The notes under the pieces were generated by a model. It saw nothing but the letters and a program-made list of their open reading frames with translations, was not told where the DNA came from and did not search any database. DNA of 39,155 nt from Planctomycetota bacterium (lineage in GTDB: Bacteria > Planctomycetota > Phycisphaerae > Phycisphaerales > UBA1924): positions 1 through 39,155 of the forward strand of contig JAJRXR010000076.1 in assembly GCA_024276195.1 (NCBI GenBank), read 5' to 3'. Positions within the stretch are counted from its first letter, which is position 1, and every line of letters begins with the position of its first letter. Shown one piece after another: positions 1 to 24,123 of the stretch. The position numbers and the translations under genes were made by a program.

Positions 1-2144
1 GGAGTGAGGACAGAGCGGGAAGAAGTGAAGACAGAGGGGACGGAGTTCACGGGCGGGACGCCCGTGCCACGAGGGGGGGGAGTGGCGACGCTTCCATGCG
101 CTTCTACCCCGACCGCTACGCCAAGACCTACGAGACCTGGCACGACGACCTGCGGGACTGGTGCATCAGCCGCCAGCTCTGGTGGGGGCATCGGATTCCG
201 GTTTGGAGTCGACTGGCTTCGATTCCTGTCAACTGGCGTGAGCTGTTGGAGGGCGGCACGCTTGAAGATGAGTTCTTGGAGTTCTGCTACTGGGACCTAC
301 TCGACTACGGCGATCCCGTTCCGCGACATTCGATGGAGCAAGACTCTGGCGATGCAAGGATTGACTGGTCGGCGGCTGCGTCCGTTGTCTTCGAGCGACT
401 CCGTGATGGAGAGGTCTTCAACACCAACGACACTGGAGTGGGAGGTCTCTTTGGTTTTCTCGGCACCGATCCGGGTGGCGACTACAGGGTCTTTGTTTGC
501 GTGCGGAGCAACTGCCCCGGCACCGAAGAGGCTTTAGCAGATCAAGGCTTCACCCAAGACCCCGACGTCCTCGACACCTGGTTCTCCTCCGCCCTCTGGC
601 CGCTCTCGACGATGGGCTGGCCCGACCCGGATACCGCCGCCTCGCTCGACCCCGGCGCACCCGAAGACATCAAGGACTTGCTCGCGGCGTTCAACCCCAC
701 CTCCGTCCTGACCACCGCTCGCGAGATCATCACCCTCTGGGTCTCGCGCATGGTCATGTTCAACCGCTATTTCCTCTCTACCGATCCTCGTGGCACGGGC
801 GTCCCGCCCGTAGCTACCACTCCTCCTCTTTCTTCTCCCCCTATACAACAAGAGCCAGCAAGCACCGAAGACCACGGGCGAGACGCCCGTGCCACGAGAA
901 ATGAAGAAGAGGTAGATCACGGGCGGGACGCCCGTGCTGCGAGGGGGGGGGAAGGCCCGATCCCATTCCACGACGTCTTCATCCACGCCATGATCCAGGA
1001 CGGCGAGGGTCGCAAGATGTCCAAATCCCTCGGCAACGGCGTGGACCCGTTCGACATCATCCACTCCCACGGCGCCGACGCCATGCGCTTCACCCTCGCC
1101 AAGATGACCACACAGACGCAGGACGTGCGCATGCCCGTGGTCTTTGACGAGAAAACCGGCAAGAACACCTCGCCCAAGTTCGACGAGGGCAGGAACTTCT
1201 GCAACAAGCTCTGGAACGCCGCCCGCTTCACGCTGGCGATGCTGGATAAATCGGCTCCGGATTCGGGACACACCTTTCCACCTGCCGACCTTTCGCTCGC
1301 GGACCGCTGGATGCTCTCCCGTCTGGAGACGGCGGCCCGCGACATCGACGAAGCGCTCGCGAGCTACCAGTTCTCGACGTACGCCCAGTTGATGTACGAC
1401 CTGCTGTGGCGTGACTTCTGCGACTGGTATCTCGAGGCGATCAAGCCGCAGGTCGCAGGCGACGCGGGCACACGGGCGACGCTGCGACTGTCGCTCGAGG
1501 TGATCCTGCGCCTGCTGCACCCGATCACGCCCTTCGTGAGCGAGGCGGTCCACGAGCGCCTGCGCGAGGTCCCGATGGCGAGCATCGAGGGCGTCGGGTT
1601 CGCACCGACCAAGCACCCGAACGGGAGCGCGCCGACGCTCTGCCAGTCCGGCTGGCCCGAGATCGCAAGCTCGGTCCGCGACGAGAACGCGGAGGCGGAG
1701 TTCGAGTGGGTCCGATCGCTTGTGCGTTCGATCAACGAGACGCGGGCGGCGCACAAGGTCGAGCCTCGCCGGCGGATCACGCTGCATGTGCCCGAGGCGA
1801 TCGGGGCGCGTCTGGACGCGGTCGCGGAGCTTGTGCGCACACTCGCGGGGTTGGAAACGATCACGCACGACGCTTCGGGCGATGGCGCGGTGTTCACGTT
1901 TGAGTCGAGCGAGCTGAAGCTGTCGAACCTGGCGGACGCGGTGGACGCGGGCGCCGAGCGGGATCGGCTGATGAAGCGCAAGGCGGAGCTGGGCAAGTCG
2001 ATCGGCGCCATGCGTGGGCGCCTGTCAAACCCGGGGTATGTTGACAAGGCGCCCGAGCACTTGGTCCAGCAGACCCGCGACGAGCTGGGCGGGCTCGAAG
2101 AAGAGCTCGCGGCGGTCGAGCGCGCGTTGGAGAACCTCGCGTGA
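1..2144 (+). CDS. valS: Valyl-tRNA synthetase, 3' part (5' end outside window)
   Basis: Class I aminoacyl-tRNA synthetase that charges tRNA-Val in the cytoplasm. The frame is open from position 3, so the ATG at 96 is internal and the N-terminal part with the HIGH motif lies before the window. Seen here: the [11 protein letters not shown] and [16 protein letters not shown] signatures near 96-210, [13 protein letters not shown] near 565-603, the KMSKS loop at 1014-1028, the anticodon-binding helical domain (about 1290-1900) and the C-terminal coiled-coil arm (about 1935-2141). Oddities: a long insertion between the WGHRIPVW and DVLDTWF motifs, and four palindromic repeat copies read in frame as HGRDARAT or GTGVPPV. 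The frame is never broken, so I call it functional. The stop overlaps the GTG start of the next gene. Confidence 0.95.
48..73 (+). repeat. Palindromic repeat A, copy 1, in frame in valS
   Basis: A 26-bp element whose core is the palindrome acgggcg-gga-cgcccgt (49-65), followed by gccacgag and a G-tract. It is translated in the valS frame as HGRDARATR. Copies 2-4 are at 787-811, 873-898 and 918-943. Confidence 0.85.
787..811 (-). repeat. Palindromic repeat A, copy 2, inverted, in frame in valS
   Basis: The reverse complement of copy 1 over 25 bases. In the valS frame this orientation reads RGTGVPPV. It lies just before the region encoding the KMSKS loop, in a Ser/Pro/Thr-rich stretch that is not part of the ValRS family consensus. 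Confidence 0.85.
873..898 (+). repeat. Palindromic repeat A, copy 3, in frame in valS
   Basis: Same orientation as copy 1, with one substitution (g to a) in the loop of the palindrome. It is translated as HGRDARATR. Confidence 0.85.
918..943 (+). repeat. Palindromic repeat A, copy 4, in frame in valS
   Basis: Same orientation as copy 1 and 20 bases after copy 3. It has two changes in the right flank and is translated as HGRDARAAR, followed by a G-tract as in copy 1. Copies 3 and 4 form a near-tandem pair. Confidence 0.85.
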
Positions 2145-3265
2145 TACCGACGCTGCGGATGCTGCGGATGGTCGGCGTCAGCGCCTGTCTGTGCGCCGGG
2201 CTCGGGCAGGCGGGGTGCTCGTCGGCGCCGACGCGCGATGCGGCGCCCGGCGTGCTCGAGGCGGGCGCGCTGACCCCGCGGGACGCTGTTCTTCACGTCG
2301 AAGCGTGGACCTTCGAGGGGATCCGCGGGCGGGCGATCACAACAGCCTCGTTCCGGGTGTACACCACCAGCCCGGATTCGCTGACCATCGCGCGACTGCC
2401 CGCGTTTCTTGAGGGCGCGTTGACGCACTACCGGAGCGAGCTGGCGGCGCTGCCGGCGCCCGGCGCGCGCATGGAAACGTACATGATGCCGACGCGCCCG
2501 CAGTGGGAACGCCTGACGCGCCGCCTGCTCGGCGACAAGGCCGGGCCTTACCTGCGGATCGTGCGCGGCGGGTTCGCGGCGGGCGGGCGCGGCGTGTACT
2601 TCGACATCGGTCCGCGTGATTCGCTGCTCATCGCGGCCCACGAGGGCTGGCACCAGTACGCGCAGACCACGTTCAAAGGCGCGATGCCCGTGTGGCTCGA
2701 CGAGGGCGTCGCGGCGTACATGGAGGGCTTCCGCTGGGACCCGGCCCAGCCCGACCGCGCCATCTTCCTCGCGTGGTCAAACCCCGAGCGGTTCGACCGC
2801 CTGCGCGACGCGGCCCGGACGGGGCGGCTCCTTCCGCTGTCCGAGCTGCTCTCGACAACGCCGCAGCGCCAGATCCGACATGGGTCGAGCCAGATCCTGA
2901 CGTACTACGCCCAGCTCTGGGCGCTGATTCACTTTCTCCACGAGGGCGAGGGGAGGCGGCACGCGCCGGCGCTGTCACGCCTGCTGCGCGACGCGGCCTC
3001 GGGGCGGGTCGAGAATGTTCTGATCTCGAGCCTCGGGCGCGATCGCGCCGCCAACGCCATGAAAGGGCGCACGGGCGCGGATGTCCTGCTCGTGTACTTC
3101 GCGGCCCCGGGCGAGCCCGGCGCGATCGAGCGGCTCGACCTGGAATACAGGCGGTTTGTCCGCGACATCACCCGCCCGGGAGCGCGCAACGACGTGATCG
3201 CGGGGCGATCGCCGGTCAGTTCGCCGGTCAGTTCGCGGGCGCCTCGGTCAGCGCCCCCGCGATGA
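2141..3265 (+). CDS. Putative lipoprotein metallopeptidase (gluzincin-like)
   Basis: 374 residues from a GTG that overlaps the valS stop (GTGA), suggesting translational coupling. The N-terminus is a lipoprotein signal with a lipobox ending in Cys26 (GQAGC), so the mature protein is probably membrane-anchored outside the cytoplasm. An HExxH zinc motif, HEGWH, sits at about residues 167-171. WLDEGVAAY follows at about 185-193 and supplies the Glu expected as third zinc ligand in gluzincins. The layout resembles DUF1570-type planctomycete proteins; that family name is from memory. Substrate unknown. The low-complexity C-terminus overlaps the convergent ftsI gene by 38 bases. Zinc peptidase activity is inferred from motifs only. 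Confidence 0.75.
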
Positions 3266-5354
3266 TCCCGTTGCCCGCCGACCCGGGCTGGTGGTCGGGC
3301 GGGACGCCCATATAGGTGAGCGAGCGTTCGATGACGCGCCGGACGACCGGGCCAGCGACGGACGAGCCGTAGTGCGCTCTGACGCGCACGCGCGACGGGC
3401 CTGGGTCATCGATCACGACGAGAACAACAAGCTCCGGCTCGCTCGCGGGGGCTGCGGCGATGAAGCTGGAGTTGTACTGGCGCTGGAAGTACCCGGTCGC
3501 GCCGGGGGGGCGTTTTTTGCCGGGCGGGGGGACGCAGGGGATCTGCGCGGTGCCGGACTTTCCGAACATGGTGTAGCGCGGGGTCGGGTCGTCGGGAAAC
3601 GTGCGTTTGAGCTTCTCATCGAGACGGTCGGCCACGCCCAGCATGCCGGATCGCGTGGTGATCGCTACCTCGGGCGGGAGAACACGAACGATCACCCCTG
3701 CGCGCGAGGCGTCGCCCTCGTCGGCGACGAGCGTCAGTCGCGGCAGCGTCCCGGCCAGCTCGCCCGAGCGCGCAAACGCGCTGAACGCGCGGACCATCTG
3801 GACGGGGGTGACACCGATCTCGTGCCCGATGGAGACGTAGGTCTGTGAGTAGAGCGACCAGCTCTTGGCGCTGGTGACAAGCCCGGTCGATTCGCCGGGC
3901 AGGCCCAGATCGGTGCGCGAGCCGAACCCGAACCGGAGGACGGCGCCGCGGAGCTGGGCGGCGCTCATGCGCTCCGACAGGCGGGCCATGCCGATGTTCG
4001 AGGAGAACTTGAGCACGTCGTTCCACGTCAATCGGTTTCGGAAAGTAACGTCCTCGACGGTGCGTCCGCACTGGGTTTTGTAGAGGTTTCGCTCGTGCTC
4101 AAGGATTTCCTCGGCGTCGATCAGGCCGGCCTCCCAGCCCGCGGACCAGACGAACGGCTTGAAGGTCGAGCCGGGCTCGTAGAGATCCTCCACACACCGG
4201 TTGCGCCCGAGCGCCGGGTGAACATCGCGCGCCGGGTCGGGCAGCAGGGTGATGTATCGCGGGCGGTCGCGGACATCGCGCGCCAGCTCGGCGTGCGGCG
4301 AGGCCCAGGTCTGTGTCTGCTCGTCGAGCTCGAGCCAGGGGAAGGGCTGGGCGTCGGGAACATCGCGCAGCAGGTCGCCCATGGCGAGGACTTCACCGGT
4401 ATTGGGATTGAGGATAACGATGCGCCCGCCGGCGGCGTCCGCCTCGTCCATGCCGCGCCGGAGTTCTTCGAGCGCGATGTGCTGGAGCTCGAGATCAATC
4501 GAGAGGCGGACGGACTCGCCCGAGACGCCGGCGTTCCAGGCGCCGCGCTCGACCCAGAGTGGGCGCCCCCACGCATCACGAACATAGCTGGCCTTGCCAT
4601 CGGACTCGCGGAGGCGGCTATCGAGCATCCGCTCGGCGCCCATGAGCCCGAACTGGTCGAGCGAGGCGTCGCGCAGGCCCGCCTTGCCCACGATCGAAGC
4701 CGCAGCGTCGCCCCCGGGGTACTCGCGCATCGGGCGGCGTTCGAGCCACACGCCCGGGAGCGAGAGAGCCTCGATCCGCTTGGCGTGGGCCAGGTCAACT
4801 TCGCCCCCGAGCGGGACGTAGCGGATCAGCTTCGAGGCGGGCTGGTCACCGCCGGGCGCAGTCTCGCCCGGCGCCGCGGGCTCGAGCCCGAGCCTGCGCT
4901 CGACTGCGCGGACCAGCTCGTCGAGCGGGTCCGAATCAACAGCGTCTGGTGTGCGCGCGCGCCTAGTGTCGTTGACGATCATGCGGCTCATGATCTTGGC
5001 GCCGACTTGGTCGGGCTCGAGTCCGAGCGCATCGCTGAGCGCGATGATGACGCCGCCGGGCTCATCGGGCAAACGCTCGGGATCAACGATGACGCGGTAC
5101 CCGAAGCGTGAGGTCGAGAGGACGCGCCCGCGCCGGTCGTACAGATCACCCCGCGGCGATTGCAGCGACGCGGTGCTGGTGCGCCTCGCGATGTGCGAGG
5201 CGAGCTGCGCGCCGGGCGCTGCCTGGAGCTGAACCACCCGCCCGAGCAAAACAACAAACAGAAGCGTGACACCCATCGCAAAGAGGCGCGTCACGGCGTC
5301 GATGCGCAGCGCGGGGGACGGGGGTGTACGGGCCGGACCGGTCACGGGGACCAC
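3228..5354 (-). CDS. ftsI: FtsI/PBP2-type peptidoglycan transpeptidase
   Basis: 708 residues. A class B penicillin-binding protein that would crosslink septal peptidoglycan in the periplasm. One N-terminal membrane segment (about residues 25-42) is followed by the dimerisation domain (GDLYDRRGRVLS near 55-66) and the transpeptidase domain. All three active-site motifs are present: STFK with nucleophile Ser at about 396, SSN in KFSSNIGM near 450, and KSG at about 599-601. Its start overlaps the end of the FtsL-like gene by 13 bases, as expected for an ftsL-ftsI pair. The final residues (MGVPPDHQPG) are encoded by a sequence that resembles a degenerate palindromic repeat A. It overlaps the convergent lipoprotein gene at its 3' end. 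Confidence 0.93.
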   Translation of the reverse strand: MVPVTGPARTPPSPALRIDAVTRLFAMGVTLLFVVLLGRVVQLQAAPGAQLASHIARRTSTASLQSPRGDLYDRRGRVLSTSRFGYRVIVDPERLPDEPGGVIIALSDALGLEPDQVGAKIMSRMIVNDTRRARTPDAVDSDPLDELVRAVERRLGLEPAAPGETAPGGDQPASKLIRYVPLGGEVDLAHAKRIEALSLPGVWLERRPMREYPGGDAAASIVGKAGLRDASLDQFGLMGAERMLDSRLRESDGKASYVRDAWGRPLWVERGAWNAGVSGESVRLSIDLELQHIALEELRRGMDEADAAGGRIVILNPNTGEVLAMGDLLRDVPDAQPFPWLELDEQTQTWASPHAELARDVRDRPRYITLLPDPARDVHPALGRNRCVEDLYEPGSTFKPFVWSAGWEAGLIDAEEILEHERNLYKTQCGRTVEDVTFRNRLTWNDVLKFSSNIGMARLSERMSAAQLRGAVLRFGFGSRTDLGLPGESTGLVTSAKSWSLYSQTYVSIGHEIGVTPVQMVRAFSAFARSGELAGTLPRLTLVADEGDASRAGVIVRVLPPEVAITTRSGMLGVADRLDEKLKRTFPDDPTPRYTMFGKSGTAQIPCVPPPGKKRPPGATGYFQRQYNSSFIAAAPASEPELVVLVVIDDPGPSRVRVRAHYGSSVAGPVVRRVIERSLTYMGVPPDHQPGSAGNGIIAGALTEAPAN

Positions 5355-6823: not shown

Positions 6824-7891
6824 TTATCCCCCGCCGATCACGATCGCGCGGAGCTTCGCCGAGCGGGCGCGCGGATTGCGCTCGCACTCATCCTCACTCG
6901 GGCGCACGGGCTTTCGCGTCAGCACCGACGCGAGACCCTGCTCGCACATCGAGGCGAGAGCGCGCTTGACGGGTCTGTCTTCGAGACTGTGAAACGAGAT
7001 AAACACCACCCGCGCTCCCGGCTTGAGCCACGACCCGACACCCGACGACACGTCCTTGGCGGCGCGAGCGACGCTGGCGAGCAGCGCCTCCAGGCTGCCG
7101 ATCTCGTCGTTGACGCCGATCCGCAGGGCCTGGAATGTTCGCGTCGCCGGGTCGAGGCGCGAGCCCCCGCCCCGCCCCGCGCGGGGGCAGGCCGAGCGCA
7201 CGATCTCGCCCAGGCGTGACGTGGATTCAATCGGCCCGTCACGCCGGGCTTCGACAACTTTCCGGGCGATGCGCCGCGCGTTGCGGTCTTCGCCGAATCG
7301 CCAGATGAGGTCGGCGAGTTCCCGCTCGGGGAGGGTGTTGACCAGTTCCGCCGCCGTCACGGGCGAAGTCGGGTCCAGTCGCATGTCCAGCGGGCCATCG
7401 CGCCGGAAGCTCAGGCCCCGGGCCGGGTCATCGACCTGGGTTGAGGCGAAGCCGAGATCCGCCAGGAGCATGTCGCCCGCAATGGCTTGATTGGCAAGTG
7501 TTCGGGGGAGTCGAGCGAACCCGTCGTTGATCGCGAGAACCGACGCCGAGGCGGGGTCGTCCGGGCACAGGCTCGATCGGACGTTGGCCTCGGCCCGGGC
7601 GAGGTTGCCCGCGTCGAAATCATTGAGGACGACCGAGCCGGCATCGCCGAGGATCCGGGCGATCGCCGAGGCGTGCCCGCCGAGGCCGGCGGTGCAGTCG
7701 ATGAGCGTCTGACCCGGGGCCGGGGCGAGGGCGTCGAGCGTCTCATCGAGCAGGACGGGGATGTGGTCGAGGTCGGCGATGGATGATTGTTCGTCCGAAT
7801 CGCCCTCGGCGATAGAATCATGACGATATGGATGGCGAATCTGACCAGTTTGATGCCAGCAATGACTGCGTGGTCCGCCTGGGATCTGCAT
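6824..7891 (-). CDS. rsmH: 16S rRNA (cytosine(1402)-N(4))-methyltransferase RsmH
   Basis: SAM-dependent methyltransferase (MraW) acting on C1402 of 16S rRNA. Family signatures appear in order: HIPVLLDETLDAL, the SAM-binding DCTAGLGGHASAI, the ADLGFASTQVDDPARG block, VVFISFHSLEDR, and the C-terminal RNPRARSAKLRAI. It normally heads the division/cell-wall cluster, as here. The start is uncertain. The only in-frame ATG (7891) lies 64 bases inside the divergent DUF2007-like gene and adds about 40 residues before the family's usual N-terminus. No ATG, GTG or TTG falls between, so either the genes overlap head to head or an atypical start such as ATC near 7813 is used. A 143-base gap separates it from the LysM gene. 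Confidence 0.95.
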   Translation of the reverse strand: MQIPGGPRSHCWHQTGQIRHPYRHDSIAEGDSDEQSSIADLDHIPVLLDETLDALAPAPGQTLIDCTAGLGGHASAIARILGDAGSVVLNDFDAGNLARAEANVRSSLCPDDPASASVLAINDGFARLPRTLANQAIAGDMLLADLGFASTQVDDPARGLSFRRDGPLDMRLDPTSPVTAAELVNTLPERELADLIWRFGEDRNARRIARKVVEARRDGPIESTSRLGEIVRSACPRAGRGGGSRLDPATRTFQALRIGVNDEIGSLEALLASVARAAKDVSSGVGSWLKPGARVVFISFHSLEDRPVKRALASMCEQGLASVLTRKPVRPSEDECERNPRARSAKLRAIVIGGG

Positions 7892-8334
7892 TGACCGAGC
7901 CCGGCGCCCACATTATCGCCTCGATCATTGATGAAGCGGGAATCAAGGTCCGGGTCGCTGGCGCCACCACCATCGGGTCCATGGTGTTCTCCGGGGGTCA
8001 GTTCTCGATCGAGGTCCTGGTCTTCGATCGCGATTATGAGGCTTCCCGGGCGCTCATTAAGGCGCTTCCAGCCGGCGAGCGTGCGCTGGACGCCAAGGGG
8101 CAGTGCGTGCTGTGCCGGTACGACATGACAGGGATTGACGCGCCAATCTGCCCCGAGTGCGGCGCCGACTTGGACGAGTTGGGCGGCGTCGAGCGATACT
8201 TCCGCCTTGCCCCGGCGCCAGGCGAAGGGCGATTGATCCAGAATTTCGGCGCGGTATTGGGCGCCGGTGTTCTGTTGATGCTCGTGTTGAGCTTCATAGC
8301 TGTCCTCATCTACGAGGCGTTCCAACCGGCATGA
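7828..8334 (+). CDS. DUF2007-like protein with zinc knuckle and C-terminal membrane segment
   Basis: 168 residues. The N-terminal half (VRLGSALTEPGAHIIASIIDEAGIKV...FSIEVLVFDRDYEASRALI) matches the pattern of DUF2007, the 'putative signal transducing protein' family of small ferredoxin-like domains. A four-cysteine knuckle follows: CVLCRYDMTGIDAPICPEC at about residues 92-110, probably binding zinc. A hydrophobic C-terminal helix near residues 140-163 suggests a tail anchor. The next gene starts inside its stop (ATGA) and is a paralogue, so the two are co-translated. Function unknown. Its 5' end overlaps the only ATG start available to rsmH on the other strand. Confidence 0.7.
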   Translation: MDGESDQFDASNDCVVRLGSALTEPGAHIIASIIDEAGIKVRVAGATTIGSMVFSGGQFSIEVLVFDRDYEASRALIKALPAGERALDAKGQCVLCRYDMTGIDAPICPECGADLDELGGVERYFRLAPAPGEGRLIQNFGAVLGAGVLLMLVLSFIAVLIYEAFQPA

Positions 8335-8729
8335 CCTCACGCGAGCCCAACTTGCCCGCGGCGTACGTCGTCCTGACCACCTGCGACACGCACGACGAGG
8401 CGGCGTTGATCCGGTACGGGCTCAAGCTGCGCCAGATCATGAGCACGCTGAGCGTGCCGCGCGGATCGCTGCTGCCCGGGCGTACGCATAAACCGATCGA
8501 GGTGCTGGTGGCGCGCGAGAGCCTGGGGCGGGCGCGCGAGGCGATCGAGTACATCGCAGGAGCGGTGTACGGCGAGGGCGTCGCGGTGACACCCGACCAG
8601 CGCTGCGCGTTCTGCGACTACGACATGACCGGGCTCGGGGGCGTGACGATCTGCCCCGAGTGCGGGACCGATCTGGCCTCTGAGAGCGCCAAGCGGATGG
8701 CTAGGCGCCGGATCGCCCCGGACGCCTGA
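8331..8729 (+). CDS. DUF2007-like protein with zinc knuckle (paralogue of preceding gene)
   Basis: 132 residues from the ATG at 8331, which overlaps the upstream stop by ATGA. The N-terminal part (YVVLTTCDTHDEAALIRYGLKLRQI...IEVLVARESLGRAREAIEYI) parallels the DUF2007-like domain of the upstream protein, and the C-terminal CAFCDYDMTGLGGVTICPEC repeats the same four-cysteine knuckle. It has no membrane segment, so it may be the soluble partner of the membrane-anchored paralogue. Tandem duplication and divergence is the simplest explanation. Function unknown. Confidence 0.7.
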   Translation: MTSREPNLPAAYVVLTTCDTHDEAALIRYGLKLRQIMSTLSVPRGSLLPGRTHKPIEVLVARESLGRAREAIEYIAGAVYGEGVAVTPDQRCAFCDYDMTGLGGVTICPECGTDLASESAKRMARRRIAPDA

Positions 8730-22474: not shown

Positions 22475-23842
22475 TCATCCGGGCGCACCCGCCCCGCCCC
22501 CCGCCCCATGCCTGAGCCCACCTCTGGCCTTGAGCATCGGCTGCGGACGGAGATAGGTCAGCGACCGCCAGAGCCACTCAACGGGGCCGAAGCGGAAGAC
22601 CCGGAGCCAGAGCAGGCTGAACGCGATGTTCACACCCCAGACGCCGAAGACGACCAGCCACAGCTCCGGGTACTGAACACGGGCAAAGAGCCCGAAGCCG
22701 TGCCCGTAGAAAATGGTCGTGCAGATGAGCGTCTGGAGGAGGTAGTTGCTCAGGGCCATGCGCCCGACGGCGCCCAGGGCGATCGTCAGCGGGCGCGCGA
22801 GGCGCCGGCGAACGAGCAGGATCAGGCACGCGGCGTAGCCCAGAGCGATCGGGATACCCACGGTCTGGCCCATGCCCATGAAGATGAACCCGGGCAGGTC
22901 AGCGCCCGACACCTCGAGGGCGCCCAGGGTCAGCAGAGTCAGACCCAACCCGGCGCCGAGCCCGACGCCAGCGAGCCAGAGATAGAACCGGTCGCTGCGT
23001 TCGCCGGTGAGCACGCCGGTGCGCGTCAGGGCGATGCCGAGGATCATCATGCCCGAGACAGACCAGAAGAATCCGAAGACGAGAAAGAAGTACATCATGA
23101 GCAGGGCAAAGGCCCGCGCGCCAAGAGCGTCGATGTAGGACCCGGTGTAGGCGGCGACCTCCCCCGGGATGTCGCCGAGCATCTCGCTCGGGCTCGTCAT
23201 CACCAGGCCCAGGACCATGAGCCCCGTCATGGCGCCGACCCCAACCAGGTAGAGCGCCGAGCCAAAAATGAACTGCGTGATCGGCTTCCATCGCCGAACC
23301 CACCAGACAAAGCCCAGGCCAGCAACGGCGTACCAGACGAGGATGTCGCCGTACCACAGCCCGAAGGCGTGGAGCAGCCCGATGAGCAGCAGCCAGGCGC
23401 ACCGCGTGTACCACAGCCCCGCGCCAGCGGAGAGCTTGACCCGAGTGCGCCGTGCGCCGTTGCACTCGGGACAGGGCGAGCCATGGGGCAGGCCCGCGAG
23501 GTCATAGCCGCACCCCTGGCACAGATCCTCGCGATCAAACTTGCGGGCGTACATCACGACGCCGGCGCCGAAGAGGATCGAGAACAGGAACATCATCTTG
23601 CCGTGGAACAGGATCTGGACGACGCGGTGACTGATTTCGTTGCCCAGCGTGTTCGCCTCGGCGGCGCTGGTGTGCTCGAGCGCAAGCGCGAACACGTCGG
23701 TGGAGAACATCGCCCCCGACGGCCAGGCGAAGGCGACAATGTTCGGCCCCAGGATCCCGAGCATGGCGAAGCCGCGGATCACATCGAGCGACTCGACGCG
23801 AGAGGCGGCGAGCGTTGGCAAAGGATCTGGCGTCTGACTCAT
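22475..23842 (-). CDS. DUF418-family membrane protein with inserted zinc knuckle
   Basis: 455 residues from ATG 23842, which overlaps the acylphosphatase stop (ATGA). Polytopic membrane protein of the YeiB/DUF418 group. The opening ESLDVIRGFAMLGILGPNIVAFAWP is the family signature, and the C-terminal part (GRMALSNYLLQTLICTTIFYGHGFGLF, ELWLVVFGVWGVNIAFSLLWL) is the DUF418 domain. Between two membrane segments (about residues 100-125) sits a four-Cys knuckle, CQGCGYDLAGLPHGSPCPEC, absent from most relatives. YeiB-type proteins are thought to be transporters or acyltransferases; the substrate is unknown. Confidence 0.85.
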   Translation of the reverse strand: MSQTPDPLPTLAASRVESLDVIRGFAMLGILGPNIVAFAWPSGAMFSTDVFALALEHTSAAEANTLGNEISHRVVQILFHGKMMFLFSILFGAGVVMYARKFDREDLCQGCGYDLAGLPHGSPCPECNGARRTRVKLSAGAGLWYTRCAWLLLIGLLHAFGLWYGDILVWYAVAGLGFVWWVRRWKPITQFIFGSALYLVGVGAMTGLMVLGLVMTSPSEMLGDIPGEVAAYTGSYIDALGARAFALLMMYFFLVFGFFWSVSGMMILGIALTRTGVLTGERSDRFYLWLAGVGLGAGLGLTLLTLGALEVSGADLPGFIFMGMGQTVGIPIALGYAACLILLVRRRLARPLTIALGAVGRMALSNYLLQTLICTTIFYGHGFGLFARVQYPELWLVVFGVWGVNIAFSLLWLRVFRFGPVEWLWRSLTYLRPQPMLKARGGLRHGAGGGAGAPG

Positions 23843-24123
23843 CGTTGGCCCCCGTCCCACCGAATCTCAAAGCCGGATTCCGCCTCGCACGTCTGAATAC
23901 CACACCGATCGCAGCCCGTGATATTTGCGCCCAGACGCCCCCGGATCGCCTCTTCAAAGCGGTCAAGCTCGTCCGCAGCGCCCTGGGCTTCGAGCGTGAC
24001 CGAGGCGTCGGGCTCGTTGCGCACCCAGCCGGTGACGCGATAGTCGCGCGCGATCGAGCGGCACGTCGCCCGGAACCCGACACCCTGGACCTGTCCCCGA
24101 TACCTCATCCTGCGGCGCTCCAT
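23839..24123 (-). CDS. Acylphosphatase
   Basis: 94 residues. Small alpha/beta enzyme that hydrolyses acyl phosphates. The signature RGQVQGVGFRATCRSIA contains the catalytic Arg, and VTGWVRNEPDASV the catalytic Asn. Length is normal. Unusually, the C-terminal third contains CDRCGIQTC, three cysteines in a family that normally has none there. Its stop overlaps the start of the DUF418 gene, so the two are translationally coupled. The first four residues (MERR) may be trimmed if MRYRG is the start. Confidence 0.93.
   Translation of the reverse strand: MERRRMRYRGQVQGVGFRATCRSIARDYRVTGWVRNEPDASVTLEAQGAADELDRFEEAIRGRLGANITGCDRCGIQTCEAESGFEIRWDGGQR

Follow-up and report, generated by a model that had tools for sequence, protein, structure and literature searches.

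What are the palindromic repeats that are read in frame through the valyl-tRNA synthetase gene (valS) of a Planctomycetota bacterium? The stretch of DNA analyzed here, 39,155 nucleotides of contig JAJRXR010000076.1 (the window), opens within valS, the C-terminal part of which occupies positions 3..2144 of the plus strand (713 codons). It had been predicted from these letters alone that four copies of a palindrome, at 48-73, 787-811, 873-898 and 918-943, represent a proliferating element that is translated in frame and that even an essential synthetase tolerates. A sequence check bore out the coordinates, the occurrence of both orientations and the absence of stop codons in the valS frame (3-2144), the last copy reading HGRDARAA. 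We found that these palindromes are repetitive extragenic palindromes (REPs) belonging to an identifiable REP-associated tyrosine transposase (RAYT) element. Overall, it is probable that this element, whose transposase is a TnpA-REP of the HUH/Y1 type, lives in frame inside essential enzymes.

A transposase in frame within valS

The beginning of the valS frame was recovered from an adjoining contig, C7, the end of which corresponds to window positions 1-136 with one mismatch (a 136-bp overlap). The joined frame spans 1453 codons from stop to stop with no stop inside, and the Pfam domains follow each other along this open reading frame (ORF) in the order tRNA-synt_1, Y1_Tnp and remaining synthetase. 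The insert consists of a REP, a complete RAYT and an inverted REP, all in frame. The left REP is located at C7:2915-2932, the conserved RAYT core at C7:2997-3416, the C-terminal linker of the RAYT at window positions 1..47 (plus strand) and the right-end REP at 48..73 (minus strand; GTGG foot, CACGGGCG stem, TCC loop), the plus-strand translation of which is HGRDARAT. The stretch from the left REP to the RAYT core is free of methionine, and the next stop codon is found only at the end of ValRS. The original prediction was therefore right about a proliferating in-frame palindrome but missed that its copies are the REPs of a RAYT and that the one at 48-73 closes a whole RAYT element on its right side. 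Indeed, window positions 1-47, the tail of the in-frame transposase on C7, cannot be recognized as such from the window letters alone.

Six Y1_Tnp matches were found in this genome (3.04 Mb in 88 contigs), three of which are in frame within housekeeping genes (ValRS, LeuRS and RdgB), and the LeuRS and RdgB inserts each lie within a single contig. All three inserts exceeded the curated RAYT model NF047646 (90.6, 94.4 and 93.7 bits; cut-off, 80). Furthermore, the TnpA-REP fold was recognized, the RAYT profile aligning with the TnpA-REP structure 4er8.

The typical REP comprises a GTGG foot and a hairpin whose stem is 8 bp and whose loop is 3 nt long. On the foot-bearing strand, a copy reads GTGG-CACGGGCG-TCC-CGCCCGTG, that is, a foot and then a short hairpin. 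The copies at 787-811 and 873-898 form an inverted, REPIN-like pair (787..898) at a second ValRS site, with PFHDVFIHA as its right-hand ValRS boundary, and the copy at 918..943 (minus strand), the only one of the four with a variant foot, is the third REP of this site. The pattern CGGGCGNGACGCCCGTG, with up to three mismatches, gave 19 matches in the window versus 4.28 expected, a number reached in none of 100 shuffles; since the four copies match on both strands, 8 of these 19 matches come from them. Genome-wide, we counted 34 exact and 9 one-mismatch copies, and 66 copies at up to two mismatches versus 4 for a reversed control pattern. Because of the contig overlap, C7:3469 and window position 49 are one and the same copy, leaving 33 distinct exact copies. 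A chance origin of the palindromes was rejected on the basis of the window shuffles and of the genome-wide copies compared to the reversed control. Of 13 close REP pairs, 10 were inverted in one and the same sense; such same-sense pairs resemble REPINs. The family thus combines a GT[AG]G-type foot and a short palindrome with many dispersed copies and inverted pairs, as is characteristic of REPs and REPINs.

By reading, 21 of the 53 mapped REP copies were placed internally in 12 genes, the remaining 32 being outside that count. According to their Pfam domains, these genes encode ValRS, an IleRS-like class I synthetase, RarA, DnaE, dihydrouridine synthase, a DinG-type helicase, class II ribonucleotide reductase, a MiaB-like protein, DeoC, CarB, a class II synthetase and PurL; in dihydrouridine synthase and PurL, the REP is positioned past the best Pfam stretch.

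Two further observations were made in the window. A two-mismatch copy of the palindrome at 3296-3312, near the C-terminal end of a penicillin-binding-protein-like ORF (3228-5354, minus strand), is possibly a REP relic reading MGVPPD. Separately, a zinc-ribbon-like motif, C..C.YD[ML][TA]G followed by CPEC, is common to three ORFs (7828-8729, 22475-23860) and is perhaps a recurrent planctomycete module.

Host genes and insertion sites in relatives

The three inserts of our genome belong to one RAYT clade. Related genomes also contained in-frame RAYTs of this clade in essential genes, mostly flanked by inverted REPs, at recurrent sites and with their catalytic residues kept, and the REPs were polymorphic. 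A Y1_Tnp match was present in 47 of 61 genomes (this one and 60 relatives), in many cases within a very long frame. Among 27 long-frame loci that were fetched (339 to 1529 codons), the RAYT was located inside ValRS in eight relatives, inside RdgB in six and inside LeuRS in four. An alignment of 17 inserts was the query of two wider scans, for which the genome-search tables give the best matches: a named scan, in which 80 of 449 relatives were kept, and a class-wide scan, in which 132 of 298 genomes had a match. The frames around the 103 matches listed at E≤3e-22 had a median length of 927 codons, and 85 of them reached at least 350 codons; among the 47 weaker matches listed, just one was in such a frame.

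We fetched 80 loci from the named scan and 30 from the class-wide scan, some genomes being in both. Of these 110 loci, 91 were in frames of at least 290 codons and clustered by host gene: ValRS (25), PurH (18), RdgB (17), IleRS (12), LeuRS (6), a DUF1156 protein (6), a type ISP restriction enzyme (2) and five single cases. Pfam analysis of ten loci supported PurH, an IleRS-like synthetase, DUF1156 and type ISP proteins as hosts, and the single cases were named as DnaK, a second DUF1156 protein, a KBL-like aminotransferase, PriA and an SNF2-type protein. Twenty extra loci added a second ValRS site, a DinG-type helicase, an electron-transfer flavoprotein and restriction enzymes; the Pfam scan covered seven of the 20, and locus L286 had no host domain match. 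In two genomes (L297 and L298, the Pfam scan being of L298 only), the RAYT forms an in-frame C-terminal fusion to thiamine phosphate synthase.

The insertion sites were recurrent. A single site was found in all 23 ValRS rows compared and in all 16 RdgB rows (the RdgB of our genome being entered twice), and 10 of 13 PurH rows, those having both anchors, agreed on one site, while IleRS and LeuRS harbored two sites each. On known structures, the insert maps between residues 131 and 138 of 6wwd for RdgB, 363 and 377 of 1gax for ValRS and 283 and 299 of 2kho for DnaK. Additionally, in four genomes the same ValRS site was occupied by another RAYT type, which has inverted ends of its own (G005, locus L105; G043, L122; G044, L109; G047, L101). 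This second RAYT-like type is characterized by GTWLHGD-like and YVxxEQG motifs, and the ValRS site is thus a hotspot for distinct Y1 transposases.

Flanks, start codons and catalytic residues were analyzed after reducing the 110 loci to 98 non-redundant ones, 79 of them in host frames and 78 with usable flanks. Compared to non-cognate controls, significant inverted repeats were present in the 350-nt flanks of 69 of the 78 inserts, and footed REPs pointed outward on both sides in 59. The orientation of the REPs was as expected in 64 cases on one side and 59 on the other, versus 6 and 10 in the opposite sense. Around the inserts, we counted 227 perfect 8-3-8 palindromes, at least 49 of which come from N runs, versus 1.0 in shuffles. 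Their feet were GTGG in 111 cases and GTAG in 13, and the foot test, which admits G[TG][AG]G, also counted GGAG (13) and GGGG (8). The idea that GTGG evolved from GTAG to avoid stop codons was unsupported, the feet being 17 GTGG and 5 GTAG at free RAYTs of the clade and 136 and 17 at inserted ones.

Both HUH histidines and the tyrosine were retained in 79 of 79 non-redundant inserts and in 17 of 17 in the alignment, although the histidine count is biased because the named loci were found with an HUH-containing pattern. An AlphaFold model of a relative's RdgB with its insert displayed both folds, with low-confidence linkers where the REPs are translated. The ratio of nonsynonymous to synonymous differences (pN/pS) of the RAYT ranged from 0.13 to 0.49 over 12 pairs and was below that of both host segments in seven.

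Gain, loss and retention of the element

Among 31 family genomes, including our own, a RAYT-type insert at the ValRS site was present in 8, absent from 21 and uncallable in 2; the count of 8 includes G005, with the other RAYT type, and G028, via locus L161. In G001, which belongs to the same genus, the site is empty, with 69 residues between the anchors versus 253 in G002. Without a RAYT, the site harbors one REP in G016 and a REP pair in G015. REP copies numbered 41 in our genome (G000), 18 in G002, 1 in G001, 0 in G003 (60% complete) and 44 in G016. The REP pair in CarB of G000 is missing in G002, G003, G008, G016 and G020 (G001 being unreadable there). G000 and G002 have the ribonucleotide reductase pair in common, G001, G004, G008 and G020 lack it, and G016 has a different insertion that carries one REP. 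Conversely, two proteins of G002 (SucC and Icd, by eye) have 14-residue in-frame REP insertions relative to G000. Close relatives thus do not all have the same residues at the same sites, as the empty ValRS site of G001 and the lack of the CarB copies in G002 and G003 illustrate, and the predicted proliferation of an in-frame element tolerated in an essential synthetase is supported.

The history of the RAYTs was analyzed on a tree of 106 sequences, obtained with a "quick" build in which 44 of 102 inner branches are open. Host genes were strongly clustered on this tree, with 21 changes versus 70 in shuffles (IleRS, 1; PurH, 2; LeuRS, 2; RdgB, 3; ValRS, 8). Inserts of ValRS and LeuRS are the branching partners of the DnaK and KBL cases, a pattern suggestive of host switching, with many forks open; given the type of build and the open branches, these switches are undated. 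RAYT and host divergence were correlated for ValRS (r = 0.32) and RdgB (r = 0.63), many of the loci being truncated. In one RdgB pair (L184/L229), the synonymous divergence (dS) was 0.07 for the RAYT versus 0.28-0.29 for the host, a hint, from this pair only, of element transfer between diverged hosts.

How could such an element persist? We propose that the whole ORF would be translated as one chain and that the host enzyme would fold around the RAYT domain, the REP-encoded peptides providing flexible linkage at a surface loop. As the RAYT would be made each time the enzyme is produced, it could mobilize REPs and inverted REP pairs in single-stranded form; TnpA-REP is reported to bind and cleave single strands (PMC8266576). 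Within genes, only copies landing in frame in tolerant loops would survive. Residence in an essential frame may furthermore shield the element from loss, since nonsense or frameshift mutations there would truncate the host enzyme. We regard as evenly balanced the broader proposal that a clade of HUH transposases has largely left free-standing genes to become in-frame residents, that is, unspliced internal domains that would be protected by the host frame, catalytically competent, able to move between sites and hosts and to seed stop-free linker REPs.

Several observations weigh against an element residing in frame. Nine of the 27 long-frame loci were free-standing RAYT genes with a spurious long frame; thus, in GC-rich DNA, a long stop-free frame by itself is no proof of a gene. 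The records are for the most part metagenome assemblies. Nine of the 78 inserts had no significant inverted flanks, and 19 had no footed REPs on both sides. In a ValRS insert of G006 (L262), which is outside the 79, the catalytic tyrosine seems by eye to be missing while the frame is open; this RAYT may be a domesticated or decaying copy. The pN/pS of the RAYT was above that of both host segments in 2 of the 12 pairs, both RdgB pairs with G001. G016 has its 44 REPs yet no RAYT at the ValRS site, and REP number therefore does not depend on that copy alone. For PurH and IleRS, nothing significant was found between RAYT and host divergence, many of these loci also being truncated. At the second valS site of G002 (L249), the repeat pair contains two in-frame stop codons, after which the frame resumes unchanged; these are either an assembly error or a real interruption, and "always in frame" is therefore not absolute. 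Finally, within the 50 codons upstream of the RAYT, an in-frame ATG occurs in 38 of 79 inserts and any of ATG, GTG or TTG in 71; as these 50 codons include host residues, many of them in RdgB, the start-codon test is not clean.

Such starts would fit a RAYT translated apart from an internal start, with the enzyme left as two fragments. However, a Shine-Dalgarno-like motif precedes such an ATG in only 5 of 79 inserts, and any such start in 9, downstream of the RAYT the frame stays open for 387 codons (median) versus 11 in 19 free RAYTs, and the ValRS linker of our genome is methionine-free, so that we judge separate translation improbable. We see equally little likelihood in the insert being removed before the enzyme works, whether as an IStron or intron from the RNA, as an intein from the protein or through ribosomes bypassing it. 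Elements of this kind are known in conserved genes, and the stop codons of G002 would be accommodated, but removal does not need an open host frame, and yet none of the 103 strong matches listed has a stop inside the RAYT match. RNA processing, which the original prediction had named as counting against it, found no support: neither the window nor six loci with inserts (L045-L047, L169, L171 and L214) gave an Rfam match at gathering score, and an intron or IStron was rejected on this ground. An intein was likewise rejected, as no Hint or splicing domain was among the Pfam matches (E≤0.001) of the scanned fusions.

Domestication is a likelier rival, although still doubtful: the RAYT would not be selfish but a domain that aids the host enzyme or uses this enzyme as a sensor. 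The purifying selection on the RAYT and the gene-specific groups in the tree, above all those of IleRS, PurH and LeuRS, are in agreement with this. In contrast, the patchy presence at the ValRS site, the different RAYT type at that same site, the inverted REPs kept at both ends of most inserts and the REPs in many unrelated genes argue against it. An assembly artefact is the least credible of all. The ValRS case of our genome does rely on the joining of two contigs, and palindromes disturb assembly; nevertheless, the LeuRS and RdgB inserts are within single contigs, and the same gene and site recur across different assemblies. Moreover, cases are found in a chromosome record (RdgB; CP053450.1), in the isolate Desulfoferrobacter suflitae DRH4 (DUF1156 protein) and in the single-contig genomes G302 (ValRS) and G105 (helicase). 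A simple contig chimera was rejected on these grounds.

Relation to known systems

The original prediction had ranked the palindromes as perhaps the most unusual feature of the window. What is novel is the embedded transposase and not the palindromes as such: REPs inside ORFs, including those of tRNA synthetases, DnaE and DNA ligase, are reported in the available sections of PMC3733652, and in-frame REPs within tnpA-REP genes in those of PMC6006769. According to the same excerpts, published REPs carry a GTAG foot, with GT[AG]G in one subclass (PMC3733652, PMC6006769). The accessible part of the RAYT survey PMC6006769 states that a few unexpectedly long proteins were discarded as fusions or annotation errors. 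RAYTs residing in essential genes were described nowhere in the open-access full texts searched, a corpus outside which all bioRxiv preprints and most subscription papers fall, and no such case appears in the available portion of a Thiomargarita mobile-element paper (PMC4853749).

If our interpretation is correct, a transposable element can persist without splicing or target inactivation, as a tolerated translated domain of an essential protein, and a transposase would be assigned to one family of protein-coding palindromes. The inserts would also provide a natural record of where ValRS, IleRS, LeuRS, RdgB, PurH and DnaK accept a domain of about 150 residues. The annotation of long "fusion" proteins may conceal a large RAYT population.

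Inteins and homing elements likewise occupy fixed positions, in frame, within conserved essential genes, where they persist because they are hard to lose. Unlike inteins, the inserts described here have no splicing domain in the scanned fusions and seem to be retained, and an HUH transposase takes the place of the homing endonuclease. IStrons, as outlined in the available part of PMC4227781, combine an insertion sequence with a group I intron and similarly make insertion-sequence mobility tolerable to genes, whereas no intron RNA was matched here. The predicted likeness to Rickettsia palindromic elements held in effect: in both cases, palindromes are translated in frame in unrelated genes, a likeness of description. 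However, the accessible text of a review covering the Rickettsia elements (PMC10969869) names no transposase, while the palindromes described here are tied to a RAYT. The intragenic REPs of PMC3733652 are closer, being REPs in ORFs, but those presented in its available sections encode 20 to 82 residues, with no transposase in the gene. The closest system is the REP/RAYT system (REPtron) with its Y1 HUH TnpA-REP, with which our element shares the HUH motif and tyrosine, the TnpA-REP fold, the inverted flanking REPs with a GT[AG]G foot, the dispersed REPs and the inverted REP pairs. It differs in that the RAYT has no stop codon of its own and is an internal domain of essential enzymes instead of a free gene. 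In-frame REPs were thus already known, and what appears to be new is the whole RAYT element as a putative internal domain of essential enzymes.
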